DNA of 64,000 bases from Methylomarinovum caldicuralii (lineage in GTDB: Bacteria > Pseudomonadota > Gammaproteobacteria > Methylococcales > Methylothermaceae), in the NCBI RefSeq assembly GCF_033126985.1, contig NZ_AP024714.1:1116001-1180000 (forward strand). The letters run 5' to 3'. The position numbers and the translations under genes were made by a program. The notes under the pieces are model-generated. The model was not told the origin of the DNA, did not search any database, and worked only from the letters and a program-made list of their open reading frames with translations. Below, one piece after another: positions 43,743 through 61,263 of this stretch. Positions within the stretch are counted from its first letter, which is position 1. Every line of letters begins with the position of its first letter.

Positions 43743-44783
43743 ATGTCACTGGACGATCTGCTTTCCCAGGACGAGATCGACGCCCTGCTTCACGGCGTCG
43801 ACGAAGGCGAGGTCAAGACCGAGGACGAAGAGGGCAATTTCTCCCCCGAGGGCGTGCGTTCTTACGACTTCACCAGTCAGGACCGCATCGTCCGCGGGCG
43901 GATGCCGACCCTGGAGATGGTGAGCGAACGCTTCGCCCGCTATTTCCGCATCAGTCTTTTCAACCTGTTGCGCCGCACCGCCGAGGTCACCTTCACCGGC
44001 ATCCAGGTGTCGAAGTTCTCCGAATTCATCAACAGCCTGTTCGTTCCCACCAATCTCAACCTGATCCGCCTCAAGCCGTTGCGGGGCAGGGCCCTGATCG
44101 TCATGGAACCGACGCTGGTGTTCACCGCGGTGGACAACTATTTCGGCGGCACCGGCCAGTTCTACAACAAGATCGAGGGGCGCGAATTCACCCCCACGGA
44201 GATGCGGATCATCCAGATCCTGTTGGAAATGGCTTTCAAGGATCTCAAGGAAGCCTGGCGGCCGGTCATGGATGTGCAGTTCGAGTATCTCAACTCCGAG
44301 GTCAACCCTCAGTTCGCCAACATCGTCAGCCCGCCGGAAATCGTCGTCACCTCGACCATTCACATCGAACTGGAAGGCGGGGGCGGGGATTTTCACATCT
44401 GCCTGCCGTATTCGATGATCGAGCCGATCCGTGAACTGCTCGATTCCATCCAGAGCGAGCGCGGCGACATCGACGATCGCTGGCAACGGGCCATGCGTTA
44501 CGAGGTCATGGAAACCCAGGTGGAAGTCTACGGCATCCTGCTGGAAAAACAGCTGACGCTGGAGGACGTGCTGAACTTCGAACCGGGGGATGTGATCCCG
44601 GTGGAGATTCCCGAACAGGTGACCCTGTTTTCGGAGGACGTCCCGCTTTTCCATGGCCGGGTCGGGGTTTCCAACGGCAATTACGCGGTCAAGATTCAGG
44701 AGAAGGTGGAGCGGGGGCCCGATGTCACCCCGGTGACGCAGATTATCGATCAGATCGAAGCAGAGGAAGACGCCGATGAGTGA
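43743..44783 (+). CDS. fliM: Flagellar motor switch protein FliM
   Basis: FliM is the C-ring protein that binds phosphorylated CheY and sets rotation direction. The 346-residue protein begins with the CheY-binding peptide, LLSQDEIDALLHGVDEG (about 6-22), followed by the middle domain starting DRIVRGRMPTLEMVSERFAR and a C-terminal SpoA domain with VEIPEQVTLFSEDVPLFHGR. Length is slightly above E. coli FliM (334). The stop overlaps the fliN start by eight bases. Confidence 0.97.
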   Translation: MSLDDLLSQDEIDALLHGVDEGEVKTEDEEGNFSPEGVRSYDFTSQDRIVRGRMPTLEMVSERFARYFRISLFNLLRRTAEVTFTGIQVSKFSEFINSLFVPTNLNLIRLKPLRGRALIVMEPTLVFTAVDNYFGGTGQFYNKIEGREFTPTEMRIIQILLEMAFKDLKEAWRPVMDVQFEYLNSEVNPQFANIVSPPEIVVTSTIHIELEGGGGDFHICLPYSMIEPIRELLDSIQSERGDIDDRWQRAMRYEVMETQVEVYGILLEKQLTLEDVLNFEPGDVIPVEIPEQVTLFSEDVPLFHGRVGVSNGNYAVKIQEKVERGPDVTPVTQIIDQIEAEEDADE

Positions 44784-54009: not shown

Positions 54010-54396
54010 TTGGACAAGAACATGAAAATCCTGGTGGTGGACGATTTTTCCACCATGCGCCGTATCATCAAGAACCTGCTGCGGGATCTGGGATTCACCA
54101 ACGTCGCCGAGGCCGACGACGGCCAGACCGCCCTGCCCAAGCTGCAGGCCGGGGATTTCGATCTGCTCATCACCGACTGGAACATGCCAGGCATGACCGG
54201 CATCGACCTGCTCCGGGCGGTGCGGGCCGACGAGAAGCTGGCCAACCTCCCGGTGCTGATGGTAACCGCCGAAGCCCGCCGCGAGCAGATCGTCGCCGCC
54301 GCCCAGGCCGGAGTTAATGGTTACATCGTCAAGCCGTTCACCGCCGCGACCCTGAAGGAAAAGCTGGAAAAGATCTTCGAACGGCTGGAGGCCTGA
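54010..54396 (+). CDS. cheY: Chemotaxis response regulator CheY
   Basis: CheY carries the phosphate signal from CheA to FliM. The 128-residue single receiver has [20 protein letters not shown] at the start, the phospho-acceptor Asp56 in [11 protein letters not shown], the signalling Thr in MVTAEAR and the conserved Lys in YIVKPFTA. I chose TTG 54010 because AGAGGGG (53996-54002) is seven bases upstream and the alignment with E. coli CheY (129 residues) is then complete; ATG 54022 is the alternative. cheZ follows by four bases. Confidence 0.95.
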
Positions 54397-54400
54397 GGCA

Positions 54401-55171
54401 ATGACGGAAGCGGTGGAAAAACTCGATGCTTCCCTGGAGGCGCGCCTGGCCCGGGCCAATGCGTTGGTGGCGGCGCTGGAACAGGGGGACGAGGACGAGG
54501 CGGACCGGGTGCTGGACGAGATCGGCCGGGTGCGTCAGAGCATGCTGTTCCAGGAGATCGGCCGCCTGACCCGCCAGCTCCACGATGCCCTCACCGGCTT
54601 CATGCTCGACGACAGGCTGGCGGATCTGACCGAACGGGAGATGCCTGATGCCCGCGAGCGCCTCAAATACGTCATCACCCTGACCGAGCAGGCCGCCAAC
54701 ACCACTCTCAACGTGGTGGAGCAGGTGCTGCCGATGGTCGATGATCTTAGCGCCAGGACGTCTTCGCTGTCACAGCGCTGGCGCCGCCTGTTGCAACGGG
54801 AGATGTCCTTCGAGGAATTCAGGGAATTCAGTCGTGACATCAGTACCTTCCTCGACGAGCTCGACAGCGGCCTGAGCCAGGTGCAGGGGCAGCTCAACGA
54901 AGTGCTCATGGCCCAGAGCTTCCAGGATCTGACCGGTCAGATCATCCGCCGCGTCATCGATCTGGTGCAGGAAGTCGAGAACAGTCTGGTGGAGCTGATC
55001 CGCTTCGCCGCCAGACAGGGGGGCGGGCAAGCGGTCAAAACCGAGAAGAAAGCGGAACAAGCGGACAAGAAGATCGAAGCCCAGGGTCCGGTGGTGCCGG
55101 AGGTGGATCAGAGTGGGGCGGTCACCAGCCAGGACGAGGTGGACGATCTGCTTTCCAGTCTGGGGTTCTAA
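54401..55171 (+). CDS. cheZ: CheY phosphatase CheZ
   Basis: CheZ dephosphorylates CheY-P to end the signal. The 256-residue protein is a long helical hairpin with a four-helix core. The catalytic Gln lies in LMAQSFQDLTGQIIRRVIDL (about 168-187). After a charged linker (about 205-240) it ends with the CheY-binding C-terminal helix SQDEVDDLLSSLGF, very close to that of E. coli. Length and location between cheY and cheA are standard for polar flagellates. Confidence 0.96.
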   Translation: MTEAVEKLDASLEARLARANALVAALEQGDEDEADRVLDEIGRVRQSMLFQEIGRLTRQLHDALTGFMLDDRLADLTEREMPDARERLKYVITLTEQAANTTLNVVEQVLPMVDDLSARTSSLSQRWRRLLQREMSFEEFREFSRDISTFLDELDSGLSQVQGQLNEVLMAQSFQDLTGQIIRRVIDLVQEVENSLVELIRFAARQGGGQAVKTEKKAEQADKKIEAQGPVVPEVDQSGAVTSQDEVDDLLSSLGF

Positions 55172-55181
55172 GGAGGCATCG

Positions 55182-57245
55182 ATGGCGATCGATCTCAATG
55201 ACGAAATCCTCCAGGATTTCCTGGTGGAGGCGAGCGAGATTCTCGAGCAGCTCGGCGAGCAGCTGGTGGATCTGGAGCAAAGCACCGAAGACGCCGATCT
55301 GCTCAATGCCATCTTCCGCGGCTTCCATACCGTCAAGGGCGGAGCCGGTTTCCTCGGCATCACCGCGCTGGTGGATCTGTGCCACAAGGCCGAGGACGTC
55401 TTCAACGTGCTGCGCCAGGGAGAGCGCAAGGTGTCCCCGCCGCTGATGGATGCGGTGCTCAAGGCCCTCGATGTCATCAACGACATGATGGCGCAGATCC
55501 GCGCCGGAGAGGAGCCGGAGGCGGCCGATCCCGAGCTGCTGGAAACCCTGTTGGGTTTCGCCACGCCGGAATCGGAAGAAACCGAAGCCCCCGCACCGGA
55601 ATCTTCAGTCCCTGAATCCGAAGTGGAAGCGCCTGCTGCTGAAACACAGGCTGCCGCCGATCCCGTAGAGGCCGAATTCGAAGCCATGCTTGAGGCGGCG
55701 GAAGGGAAACAGACAGGTGGCGATGACGAGATCACCGAGGAGGAATTCGAGCAGTTGCTCGACGCCCTTCACGGTGAGGGTGGCGCCCCCGGCAAACCGA
55801 AGAAGACCGGGCCGGCACCGCAAAAGCCCGAGGCCGGTGACAGTGACGAGATCACCGAGGAGGAGTTCGAAGCGCTTCTGGATCAGCTGCATGGTCCGGG
55901 AAAATTCAGGGGCGCGCCGGAGAAAACCGCCGCGCCGGCGGCGCAACCCGCCCCCAAACCTGCGGCCCAGGATAAACCCAAAACGCCACAGAGCACGGCG
56001 GAAAAACCCGCCTCGGCCAAGAAGGAACCGCGGCTGAAGGTGGTCGGCGGGGCGGATGCCCACAAGCCGCAAAAGCCCCAGGGCGAATCCACCGTCCGCG
56101 TTGATACCCAGCGGCTCGACGAGATCATGAACATGGTCGGCGAGCTGGTGCTGGTGCGCAACCGCTTCAAGACCCTGGGGGCGCTGCTGGACAACGAAGA
56201 GATGGCCAAGGCGGTGGCCAACCTGGATGTGGTCACCTCGGACCTGCAGCTGGCGGTGATGAAGACCCGGATGCAGCCCATCAAAAAGGTCTTCGGCCGT
56301 TTCCCCCGAGTGGTGCGGGATCTGGCGCGTAGCCTCAAGAAAGAGGTTCGTCTGGAGATGCAGGGGGAGGAGACCGATCTCGACAAGAACCTGGTCGAAT
56401 CCCTCGCCGATCCCCTGATCCACCTGGTGCGCAACGCCGTCGACCACGGTATCGAAATGCCCGACGAGCGCGAGAAGGCGGGCAAGCCCCGGGAAGGGAC
56501 GGTGCTGCTGACCGCCGCCCAGGAGGGTGACCACATCGAGCTGACCATCGAGGACGACGGCAAGGGCATGGATCCCGAAGTGCTGCGGCGCAAGGCGGTG
56601 GAGAAGGGACTGATGGACGGGGAAAGCGCCGCCCGCATGAGTGACAAGGAATGCTATCAGATCATCTTCATGCCCGGCTTTTCCACCAAGAGCGAGATTT
56701 CTGACATCTCCGGCCGCGGGGTGGGGATGGACGTGGTCAAGACCCGCATCGACCAGATGAACGGCAGCGTCGAGGTGGATTCGGTCAAGGGCAAGGGCAC
56801 CAAGATCGCCATCAAGGTGCCGTTGACCCTGGCGATCATGCCCACGCTGATGGTGAAACTGGAGGATCAGGCCTTCGCCCTGCCGCTGGCCAGCGTGGTG
56901 GAGATCCTGGATCTCGATCTGGACAAGACCAACGTCGTGGATGGCCAGGAGGTGGTCATCGTCCGCGATCAGGCCCTGCCGCTGTTCCATCTCAAGCACT
57001 GGCTCATCCACGGGGGCTGCAGCGACGGCGACTGTTACGGCGGCCATGTGGTGGTAGTGAACGTCGGCGGCCGCCATGCGGGCTTCGTGGTTGATCATCT
57101 CATCGGCCAGGAAGAGGTGGTCGTCAAGCCTTTGGGAGCAAAGCTCCACGGTCTCGACGGTCTGGCCGGGGCGACCATCACCGGTGACGGCATGATCGCC
57201 CTGATTCTGGATGTCCCCAGCCTGATGAAACGTTATGCGGCCTGA
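55182..57245 (+). CDS. cheA: Chemotaxis histidine kinase CheA
   Basis: CheA passes phosphate from ATP to CheY and CheB under receptor control. The 687-residue protein has the P1/Hpt domain (1-105) with His49 in FHTVKGGAGFLG, then a long low-complexity linker (about 125-310) in place of a clear P2 domain. Next are the P3 dimerisation domain (TVRVDTQRLDEIMNMVGELV), the P4 ATPase (HLVRNAVDHGIEMPDEREKA, DDGKGMD, GRGVGMDVVK) and the P5 CheW-like domain. The linker carries two copies of a DEITEEEFExLLDxLHG motif at residues 182 and 222. ATG 55182 follows AAGGAGG. The stop overlaps the cheB start by 11 bases. Confidence 0.96.
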   Translation: MAIDLNDEILQDFLVEASEILEQLGEQLVDLEQSTEDADLLNAIFRGFHTVKGGAGFLGITALVDLCHKAEDVFNVLRQGERKVSPPLMDAVLKALDVINDMMAQIRAGEEPEAADPELLETLLGFATPESEETEAPAPESSVPESEVEAPAAETQAAADPVEAEFEAMLEAAEGKQTGGDDEITEEEFEQLLDALHGEGGAPGKPKKTGPAPQKPEAGDSDEITEEEFEALLDQLHGPGKFRGAPEKTAAPAAQPAPKPAAQDKPKTPQSTAEKPASAKKEPRLKVVGGADAHKPQKPQGESTVRVDTQRLDEIMNMVGELVLVRNRFKTLGALLDNEEMAKAVANLDVVTSDLQLAVMKTRMQPIKKVFGRFPRVVRDLARSLKKEVRLEMQGEETDLDKNLVESLADPLIHLVRNAVDHGIEMPDEREKAGKPREGTVLLTAAQEGDHIELTIEDDGKGMDPEVLRRKAVEKGLMDGESAARMSDKECYQIIFMPGFSTKSEISDISGRGVGMDVVKTRIDQMNGSVEVDSVKGKGTKIAIKVPLTLAIMPTLMVKLEDQAFALPLASVVEILDLDLDKTNVVDGQEVVIVRDQALPLFHLKHWLIHGGCSDGDCYGGHVVVVNVGGRHAGFVVDHLIGQEEVVVKPLGAKLHGLDGLAGATITGDGMIALILDVPSLMKRYAA
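55722..55901 (+). repeat. Duplicated DEITEEEF motif in the CheA linker
   Basis: Within cheA, residues 182-198 (DEITEEEFEQLLDALHG) and 222-238 (DEITEEEFEALLDQLHG) are near-identical at protein level, 40 residues apart, and separated by a Pro/Lys/Ala-rich spacer. The DNA of the two copies is also similar (gacgagatcaccgaggagga in both), which suggests a tandem duplication. Confidence 0.9.
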
Positions 57246-59842: not shown

Positions 59843-60643
59843 ATGCGGGTTTGGGCGGTATCCAATCAGAAGGGAGGCGTCGGCAAGACCACCACCGTCG
59901 CCAATCTGGCCGGCCTGCTGGCCCGGGGCGGCGAGCGGGTGCTGGTGATCGACCTCGACCCCCACAGCTCCTTGAGCGTCTACTTCGGTTTCGATCCCGA
60001 GCAGGTGGAAAGCGGGGTTTACGACCTGTTCCGCGCAGCCATGCAGCGCCAGCCCCTTGCGCCCAAAAGCCGTATCCAGCCGACTCCGGTGGAGAATATC
60101 GACATCCTGCCCGCCGCTATGGCGCTGGCGACCATCGAACGCCAGGCCGGCGCGGTGGAGGGGCTGGGGCTGGTGATCCGGCGCGCCCTGGGCGAAATCG
60201 CGCCGGATTACGAGCGGGTGTTGATCGACAGTCCGCCGATGCTCGGGGTATTGATGGTCAACGCCCTGGCGGCCTGCGAGCGCCTGTTAATTCCGGTCAT
60301 CGCCGATTTTCTCTCCCTGGGCGGGCTGGAGCGGATGCTGCGAACCCTGGCGATGATCGACCGCTCGCGCCGCCAGCCGTTGCCCTATCTGATCGTGCCC
60401 ACCCTCTACGACCGCCGGCCGCGGATTTCCGCCGACACCCTCAGGGTGCTGGAGGATCGTTACGGCGAGCACCTCTGGCCCAGCGTCATCCCCCAGGACA
60501 CCAAGGTGCGTGAAGCCAGCCGGGCCCATCTGCCGTTGTGTCACTACCATCCCAGATCCCGGGCGGCACTCGCCTATGAAACCCTGCTGGATTACCTGCT
60601 CGAGCAGGAAGACCAGCCAACCCTTCAGGCGGCATCGGCATGA
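59843..60643 (+). CDS. parC: ParA-like ATPase ParC, chemotaxis array placement
   Basis: The product is a ParA/MinD-type ATPase of 266 residues with the Walker A SNQKGGVGKTTTVANLAGLL at its start, LVIDLDPHSSLSVYFGF and a switch region VLIDSPPMLGVLMVNAL. In Vibrio the homologue encoded in the same position (between cheB/motor genes and cheW) is ParC, which forms a polar gradient and brings chemoreceptor arrays to the pole together with ParP. That role is transferred by synteny. It should not be confused with topoisomerase IV subunit ParC. ATG 59843; the stop overlaps parP by four bases. Confidence 0.87.
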   Translation: MRVWAVSNQKGGVGKTTTVANLAGLLARGGERVLVIDLDPHSSLSVYFGFDPEQVESGVYDLFRAAMQRQPLAPKSRIQPTPVENIDILPAAMALATIERQAGAVEGLGLVIRRALGEIAPDYERVLIDSPPMLGVLMVNALAACERLLIPVIADFLSLGGLERMLRTLAMIDRSRRQPLPYLIVPTLYDRRPRISADTLRVLEDRYGEHLWPSVIPQDTKVREASRAHLPLCHYHPRSRAALAYETLLDYLLEQEDQPTLQAASA

Positions 60644-61263
60644 CGGATTCCCTGACCTCCCCCGACACGGAACTGCAGGCTTATCTGGAGGCGCTGTTGA
60701 CTCTGCCTCCGGAACCGGCGCAGCGCTCTCCGACACCGGAGCCGGTACGCTGCCCGCCTTCTGGGAAAAAGCCGGCTGCGGACGGTTTGGAGGCGTCTTC
60801 CGGCCCGCCGCTGCCGCCGGGCTGCCCGGACGGATTGGGGGCGCGGTTTCCGGTTCTGCGCTTCAGACTGGGAAATCTGCGTTTCGCCGCCCCGCTGGCC
60901 CATCTCCGCGGTGCCTGGGAGATCAACGCCGATGCCCTGCGGCCGTTGTCCGGCCCGGGCCTGGTGGGTGAGATGGCGCAGCTGGGCGAAGACTGGATCG
61001 TGCTGGACACCGCCGCCCTGATCGTTTCCGGAGGCAGGCTGGAGGTGGATTACCGCTGGGCTCTGCCCACCGCACTGGGGACGTTCGCGCTTGCCTGCGA
61101 GGCGGTGGAGCGGGAAATCGACGTGGCGGCGTCCCAGGTCCGCTGGCGTGAGGATCAAAGCCGCCGTCCCTGGTTGTTGGGCATGGTGGGCGGAACGGAA
61201 AAATGTCCTTTGCTCGATATCGAAATCCTGGTGGCCGACTGGCAGGCCCGGTCGCAGAAATAA
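60640..61263 (+). CDS. parP: ParP-like CheW-domain protein
   Basis: The 207-residue protein has a Pro/Thr-rich disordered N-terminus (about 1-65) and a C-terminal CheW-like (AIF) domain from about residue 68 (RFPVLRFRLGNLRFAAPLAH) to LLDIEILVADWQ. In Vibrio, ParP joins ParC to the arrays by binding CheA and receptor signalling tips. The gene lies between parC and cheW, in the Vibrio order. It is distinct from the true CheW at 61282. The function is by synteny and domain, not direct evidence. Confidence 0.85.
   Translation: MTDSLTSPDTELQAYLEALLTLPPEPAQRSPTPEPVRCPPSGKKPAADGLEASSGPPLPPGCPDGLGARFPVLRFRLGNLRFAAPLAHLRGAWEINADALRPLSGPGLVGEMAQLGEDWIVLDTAALIVSGGRLEVDYRWALPTALGTFALACEAVEREIDVAASQVRWREDQSRRPWLLGMVGGTEKCPLLDIEILVADWQARSQK

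Follow-up and report, generated by a model that had tools for sequence, protein, structure and literature searches.

The window, by which is meant the whole stretch of 64,000 nucleotides from Methylomarinovum caldicuralii that was analyzed, contains a flagellar and chemotaxis gene cluster with fliM, cheY, cheZ, cheA, cheB, two mot-type genes, parC, parP, and cheW (Table 1). The order cheY-cheZ-cheA-cheB-mot genes-parC-parP-cheW, in which the mot genes were named by eye, places the kinase in the gammaproteobacterial flagellar CheA branch, a branch and locus type that we take to be the F6(-type) class. Read from its first ATG, cheB starts within the last 11 bases of cheA (57235-57245).

Table 1. 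Genes, domains and linker features of the window (positions are those of the window).
Feature	Position	Strand	Description	Evidence
fliM	43743..44780	+	N-terminal peptide LLSQDEIDALLHGV	Sequence
cheY	54022..54396	+	124 aa	Pfam
cheZ	54401..55171	+	C-terminal peptide SQDEVDDLLSSLGF	ORF, Pfam
cheA	55182..57245	+	687 aa	ORF, translation, Pfam, AlphaFold
CheA domains			P1 (Hpt 8-108), linker ~128-302, P3 302-362, P4, P5 (CheW-like 556-684); no P2	Pfam, AlphaFold
Predicted disordered linker	55578..56093	+	Residues 133-304	AlphaFold pLDDT mostly <50 outside motif helices
Degenerate motif copy 3	55656..55706	+	ADPVEAEFEAMLEAAEG, residues 159-175	Profile; predicted helix 161-174
Motif copy 1	55725..55775	+	DEITEEEFEQLLDALHG, residues 182-198	Profile; predicted helix 186-196
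Motif copy 2	55845..55895	+	DEITEEEFEALLDQLHG, residues 222-238	Profile; predicted helix 226-237
parC	59843..60643	+	ParC-type ParA-family ATPase, 266 aa	Orthologue profile
parP	60640..61263	+	ParP-type protein, divergent CheW-like domain, N-terminal LQAYLEALL	Pfam, profile

The Hpt, H-kinase_dim, HATPase_c, and CheW domains of Pfam are present in the window CheA and in all 40 members of an alignment of related proteins (A4). No match to a P2 or CheY-binding domain (PF07194, PF09078) was found in the window CheA, and no P2 model occurs among the Pfam families listed for the 40 aligned CheA at E values up to 0.01. HMMER is a weak test for P2, as it reported none in three CheA (L103-L105) with linkers that look P2-like by eye; it did detect the domain in one other CheA (L166). 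That P2 is missed by HMMER is also noted in a CheA survey (PMC10782961). A better test is the AlphaFold model of the window CheA (40 sequences, mean pLDDT of 77.5), in which no P2 fold is seen and no strand precedes residue 364. The sole helices predicted between residues 128 and 308, with block pLDDT values of ~59-64, are those of the three motif copies, and they lie in a linker rich in Ala, Glu, and Pro. The first-pass annotation had described this CheA as having no recognizable P2, a description that agrees with both the Pfam results and the model. A PDB sequence search with the linker returned two matches only, both unrelated and with E >1; the best 50 of 620 Foldseek matches to the CheA model were to chains of CheA or of histidine-kinase-like proteins. 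According to the same survey, P2-less proteins make up more than half of all CheA, and P2 is read as dispensable (PMC10782961).

The two full motifs lie at CheA residues 182-198 and 222-238, exactly where they had been placed on first inspection, and a third, degenerate copy precedes them. Scored against the motif profile, the full copies reach 57 and 67, versus -16 for the third. Copies 1 and 2 are alike at 15 of 17 residues, but the 51 bases that encode them agree at only 38 positions, which makes a recent duplication of the motif at the DNA level unlikely. In the alignment of 40 CheA, nothing between D97 and R306 is invariant except F229 and L233 of copy 2, and near-invariant I, H, and G residues also fall within the motif, amid a linker that is otherwise poorly conserved. 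Such a pattern does not fit the idea that the motifs merely space the domains or keep the chain soluble, without binding any particular partner. Although the predicted disorder and the Ala/Glu/Pro-rich composition of the linker would suit a spacer, as would the dispensability of P2 itself for phosphotransfer in E. coli (PMC10782961), this explanation carries very little probability.

The motif is widespread among related kinases. The linkers of fetched loci supplied 117 core matches, and the profile made from them has the consensus [SG]D[ED]I[TS][DE][DE]EF[ED]ALLD[QE]LHGKGK. In 68 readable linkers, from gammaproteobacterial genomes and the window, copies scoring >=10 number one in 8, two in 30, three in 27, and four in 3; a comparison of copy number, as proposed when the motifs were first noticed, thus yields between one and four copies of the full motif per gammaproteobacterial linker. 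For example, a Pseudomonas aeruginosa CheA (L001) carries four copies, and Vibrio CheA at two loci (L128, L169) carry three each. In a named-genome scan of 48 gammaproteobacterial loci, 46 had readable linkers (L142 and L184 being unreadable), and 45 of these contain a looser pattern, [ILVMF][STN]xxE[FILVM][DE]x[LIVMFA][LIVMF], with 121 matches versus 0.05 expected in shuffled linkers. The sole linker without it (L185) carries LDDLDFDSLLDAFHGKG. The loose core alone is not rare, since the corresponding DNA pattern gave 24 matches in the whole genome versus 11 in a reversed control; four of the 24 are FliM, CheZ, and the two CheA copies.

Outside this group, the loose pattern gave one match in seven readable linkers grouped by eye as P2-bearing, and one in 11 further linkers. 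Three linkers of Betaproteobacteria (P2 there untested by fold) and five of Campylobacterota lack it. The full profile found no match in ten CheA of other kinds (L102-L109, L111, L112), although some of their linkers, as extracted, were short and one was empty. Judged by these sequence comparisons, the motif is a trait of the gammaproteobacterial CheA family. Extending the motif to every P2-less CheA was considered and rejected; a VSxxELExAF stretch occurs in only 5 of 26 alphaproteobacterial linkers and in none of the three betaproteobacterial or five Campylobacterota linkers.

Several individual loci deserve mention. Some alphaproteobacterial CheA have a motif of their own, EVSxxELExAF, which resembles the gammaproteobacterial motif in form and not in sequence and is found once or twice per linker in the 5 of 26 readable linkers (one query, 30 loci); loci with such a motif are L171 (9890-12790), L192 (9947-12733), L224, L225, L230, and L244. 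Campylobacterota CheA linkers (L151, L154, L156, L180) contain a DYxxMSxxxVEAEIERLL-type stretch, which L154 and L180 have in duplicate and which does not match the gammaproteobacterial pattern; L154 is a CheA-receiver fusion. A Photobacterium toruni plasmid (L002, NZ_CP101697.1) encodes cheY, cheZ, cheA, cheW, and a further chemotaxis gene, its CheA has one full motif, and neither parC nor parP lies within the 9.9 kb covered. A Pseudomonas aeruginosa record labelled as a plasmid (L001, NZ_CP131792.1; 847 kb, typed as conjugative) bears an flhF-fleN-fliA-che-mot-ParA cluster, which in this species is presumably chromosomal as a rule. Finally, a MAG contig labelled Klebsiella pneumoniae (L139, CAMATU010000250.1) encodes a motif-type CheA together with ParC, perhaps as the result of a binning error.

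The N-terminal peptide of FliM binds CheY. In contrast to P2, this peptide and that of CheZ bind preferentially to CheY in its phosphorylated form, which speaks against the CheY-docking reading of the CheA motifs. The earlier quotations of the FliM start, MSLDDLLSQDEIDALLHGV, and of the CheZ end, SQDEVDDLLSSLGF, are accurate. The FliM peptide and the CheA consensus both fit the arrangement hydrophobic-[ST]-x-[DE]-E-hydrophobic-[DE]-A-L-L. They differ in that FliM has Q after the S/T where CheA has D or E, and I or V where CheA has F; in addition, the CheA motif has an extra DxLHGKGK and lies within a linker, whereas the FliM peptide is N-terminal. The CheZ peptide shares E-hydrophobic-[DE]-x-L-L-x-x-L with the CheA motif, but its chain ends in GF, its Q and V differ from CheA, and the window CheZ lacks the leading hydrophobic residue. 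The resemblance to FliM is real, but in the single pattern that had been proposed as common to CheA, FliM, and CheZ, FliM has V at the position of the last L.

When a nine-column profile of the CheA motif was run against 78,058 windows from the six-frame ORFs of the stretch, the FliM N-terminus ranked second and the CheZ C-terminus sixth among non-CheA windows. With a reverse profile made from FliM and CheZ, the CheA copies did not appear in the top 30 of the stretch. At the level of these profiles, the resemblance is one-sided. Covariation between the CheA motif and FliM was tried as a test of a shared ligand and proved uninformative either way, as the FliM peptide is nearly invariant in 29 FliM. 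One parallel change in CheZ and CheA is known as a single case (G008), in which CheZ has DDILSDLGF and CheA has EFEKVLDKLHG. An AlphaFold model of CheY, CheZ, and the N-terminal part of CheA joined in a single chain (L121) had a pTM of 0.30 and supports no claim of a contact; in its best ten-residue blocks, the CheA motif helices reached pLDDT 78-84 and the CheZ peptide 52-66.

One paper assigns FliM and CheZ a common face of CheY and cites a 1997 title according to which that face overlaps the CheA-binding surface of CheY (PMC3774744). FliM/CheZ-like docking of CheY by the CheA motifs is a plausible proposal, and a common ligand of the CheA motif, FliM, and CheZ, as first suggested from the shared pattern, is a reasonable hypothesis. 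No description of FliM-like motifs in CheA was found in a full-text literature search, to which most subscription papers were closed, and a term search of one CheA survey in its preprint version returned neither "motif" nor "FliM".

The motifs may instead bind a different partner in the array or the pathway. Candidates include the receiver domain of CheB, CheV, CheW, a receptor, or another CheA chain, or the motifs could be oligomerizing helices of the SHOCT type (PF09851, a short helical Pfam family). The SHOCT consensus has an ITxEEFE-type start, and the family matches 26 of the 40 aligned CheA at E values up to 0.01, with a best value of 2.3e-9. Of ten CheA tested singly, one (L117) lies above the curated cut-off, at 32.4 versus 27 bits. 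The likeness, a short helix with this type of start, is nevertheless incomplete, as the best CheA stretches span the second half of the model only (profile positions 11-27 of 28) and mostly fall below the cut-off; the window CheA, for instance, scores 15 bits. As for the remaining candidates, no result singles out any one of them, and this group of explanations as a whole appears improbable.

A more specific alternative is offered by ParP and ParC. In published accounts, the LID (localisation and inheritance domain) of Vibrio CheA is placed between P2 and P3, is bound by the AIF domain of ParP, and is reported only in CheA that occur with ParC and ParP (PMC7534058, PMC5706961). The motif likewise lies in the CheA linker before P3, and it has in common with the LID both this linker and the kind of CheA. 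The motif region is probably the published ParP-binding LID, with the residue limits of the latter taken second-hand. It could accordingly be supposed that the motifs are simply the LID, bound by ParP to tether chemotaxis arrays to the cell pole, and that they resemble FliM and CheZ only through a coincidence of helix starts.

The distribution of ParP and ParC bears directly on this supposition. Profiles were built from orthologues, ParP being sought in 71 whole genomes and ParC in 30 of them. Because the ParP and ParC profiles also pick up CheW and ParA proteins weakly, no genome is free of hits, and the cut was placed at a gap in the scores: >~80 bits for ParP versus a CheW background of ~40-57, and >280 for ParC versus a ParA/Soj background of up to 212. 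Five genomes with low ParP-profile scores (G010, G147, G131, G142, G086) were counted as ParP-positive from their gene neighborhoods. By this cut, under which a very diverged ParP could escape, 13 of the 71 genomes have no detectable ParP, and nine of the 13 have no ParC either. Profile hits in Dyella and Lysobacter were rejected as ParP on checking and are plain CheW.

The motif is present in all 56 ParP-positive CheA with readable linkers, as would be expected of a ParP site. It is also matched in all 12 readable ParP-negative linkers, eight of which come from genomes also lacking ParC, with best scores from 13 (a degenerate copy in G023) to 67. In four ParP-negative genomes (G001, G137, G024, G095), it is at full strength, scoring 59-67. 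Similarly, five of ten named genomes have the motif with neither ParC nor ParP above background, namely Allochromatium palmeri, Dyella acidisoli, Dyella monticola, a Hydrocarboniphaga MAG, and Acidithiobacillus sp. YTS05; at least two of the named loci (L117, L133) lie in genomes that also belong to the larger genome set, which leaves the two counts partly dependent on each other. The Acidithiobacillus sequence is a complete chromosome, although there too the profiles could have missed a very diverged ParP. A Photobacterium MAG (L141) with neither gene may be incomplete and was left out of the negatives, and the remaining four named genomes have ParC, with ParP above background in Salinivibrio only. 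The LID is thus published as confined to ParC/ParP species, whereas the CheA motif described here is not so confined.

A relationship to ParP is visible in the strength of the motif. The best score is lower without ParP (median 34, n = 12) than with it (median 64, n = 56); Mann-Whitney tests, calculated without regard to phylogeny, give p = 0.0005 (whole motif), 0.007 (tail), and 0.05 (core). Matching for CheA identity leaves a deficit without ParP (-16.6, t = -5.2, n = 64, again ignoring phylogeny). These comparisons omit three cut linkers (G067, G072, G154), and the identity-matched test further omits the window and three loci (L062, L093, L110). The best copy has lost its LHG-type tail in 3 of 12 ParP-negative linkers versus 1 of 52 ParP-positive ones (Fisher p = 0.019, likewise uncorrected for phylogeny), two of the three ParP-negative losses coming from one genus.

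As the motif persists where neither ParP nor ParC is detected, the proposal that it serves solely as a ParP site is weakened. Either the motif does more than serve ParP, or it is lost more slowly than ParP itself. At the same time, the higher scores in the presence of ParP, even at matched divergence, indicate that ParP may share the motif or add a constraint to it. The suggestion in the first-pass annotation that ParP binds these motifs is therefore unlikely as the whole story, although the higher scores favor a part for ParP, and the explanation by the LID and helix-start coincidence together is rather unlikely. These results can be read simply: the core would serve an older partner, and the full motif would serve ParP as well.

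Some further loci illustrate the variety of ParC and ParP arrangements. At one (L094, G172), where neither ParC nor ParP is detectable in the genome, CheA has three motif copies in which the core ITDDEFEALL is kept and the LHG tail is lost. A parC gene without detectable ParP occurs at L057 (G095), L038 (G139), L076, and L096 (the last two in G052 and G173); at L057, L076, and L096, cheW directly follows parC. At L099 (9075-10056) and in G010, the ParP candidate beside parC looks like any CheW domain apart from its N-terminus, which resembles that of ParP and is of the YLDALL type (DDYLDALL), and other ParP candidates are very diverged. The N-terminus of the window ParP is itself a short conserved motif, in which Y15 and L20 are invariant among 15 ParP.

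The reading that we prefer, at a probability of roughly 0.48 and so a little under even odds, is that short helical motifs in this P2-less CheA dock CheY in place of P2 and are partly shared with ParP. The flexible linker that joins P1 (phosphotransfer) to P3 (dimerization) would present two full motifs and one degenerate helical motif as docking peptides. These would keep CheY, and perhaps CheB, near P1, which is the job done elsewhere by P2. By analogy with the FliM and CheZ peptides, they would bind the alpha4-beta5-alpha5 face of CheY. Where ParP is present, the less universal flanks and the LHGKGK tail would probably be used by ParP as well, making the stretch the published LID. That the ligand is CheY, which of its faces is bound, and how core and tail share the work are inferred from these likenesses and distributions. 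In position between P1 and P3 and in the proposed role of keeping CheY near P1, the motifs would be comparable to P2. They differ from it in kind: P2 is a folded domain, present as one copy in the vast majority of cases according to the survey (PMC10782961), and CheA of the window type have one to four short motifs in a disordered linker.

Extended to the family, and put forward more tentatively still, a large gammaproteobacterial branch of CheA, including those of Pseudomonas, Vibrio, and Shewanella, may have swapped P2 for one to four short helical peptides of FliM/CheZ-like form. In that case, a single face of CheY would be contested by the kinase, the phosphatase, and the motor, each with this kind of peptide, and ParP would recognize the CheA peptides too in order to tie arrays to the pole.

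A conserved, repeated peptide at the place of P2 offers, for one large group of CheA, a direct and testable answer to how P2-less kinases find CheY. Docking of CheY on CheA is itself already known; the new point, if this answer is true, would be docking by means of short motifs. If the LID and the motif are one and the same, then the LID is not confined to species with ParP, and polar anchoring of chemotaxis arrays may build on an older docking peptide.
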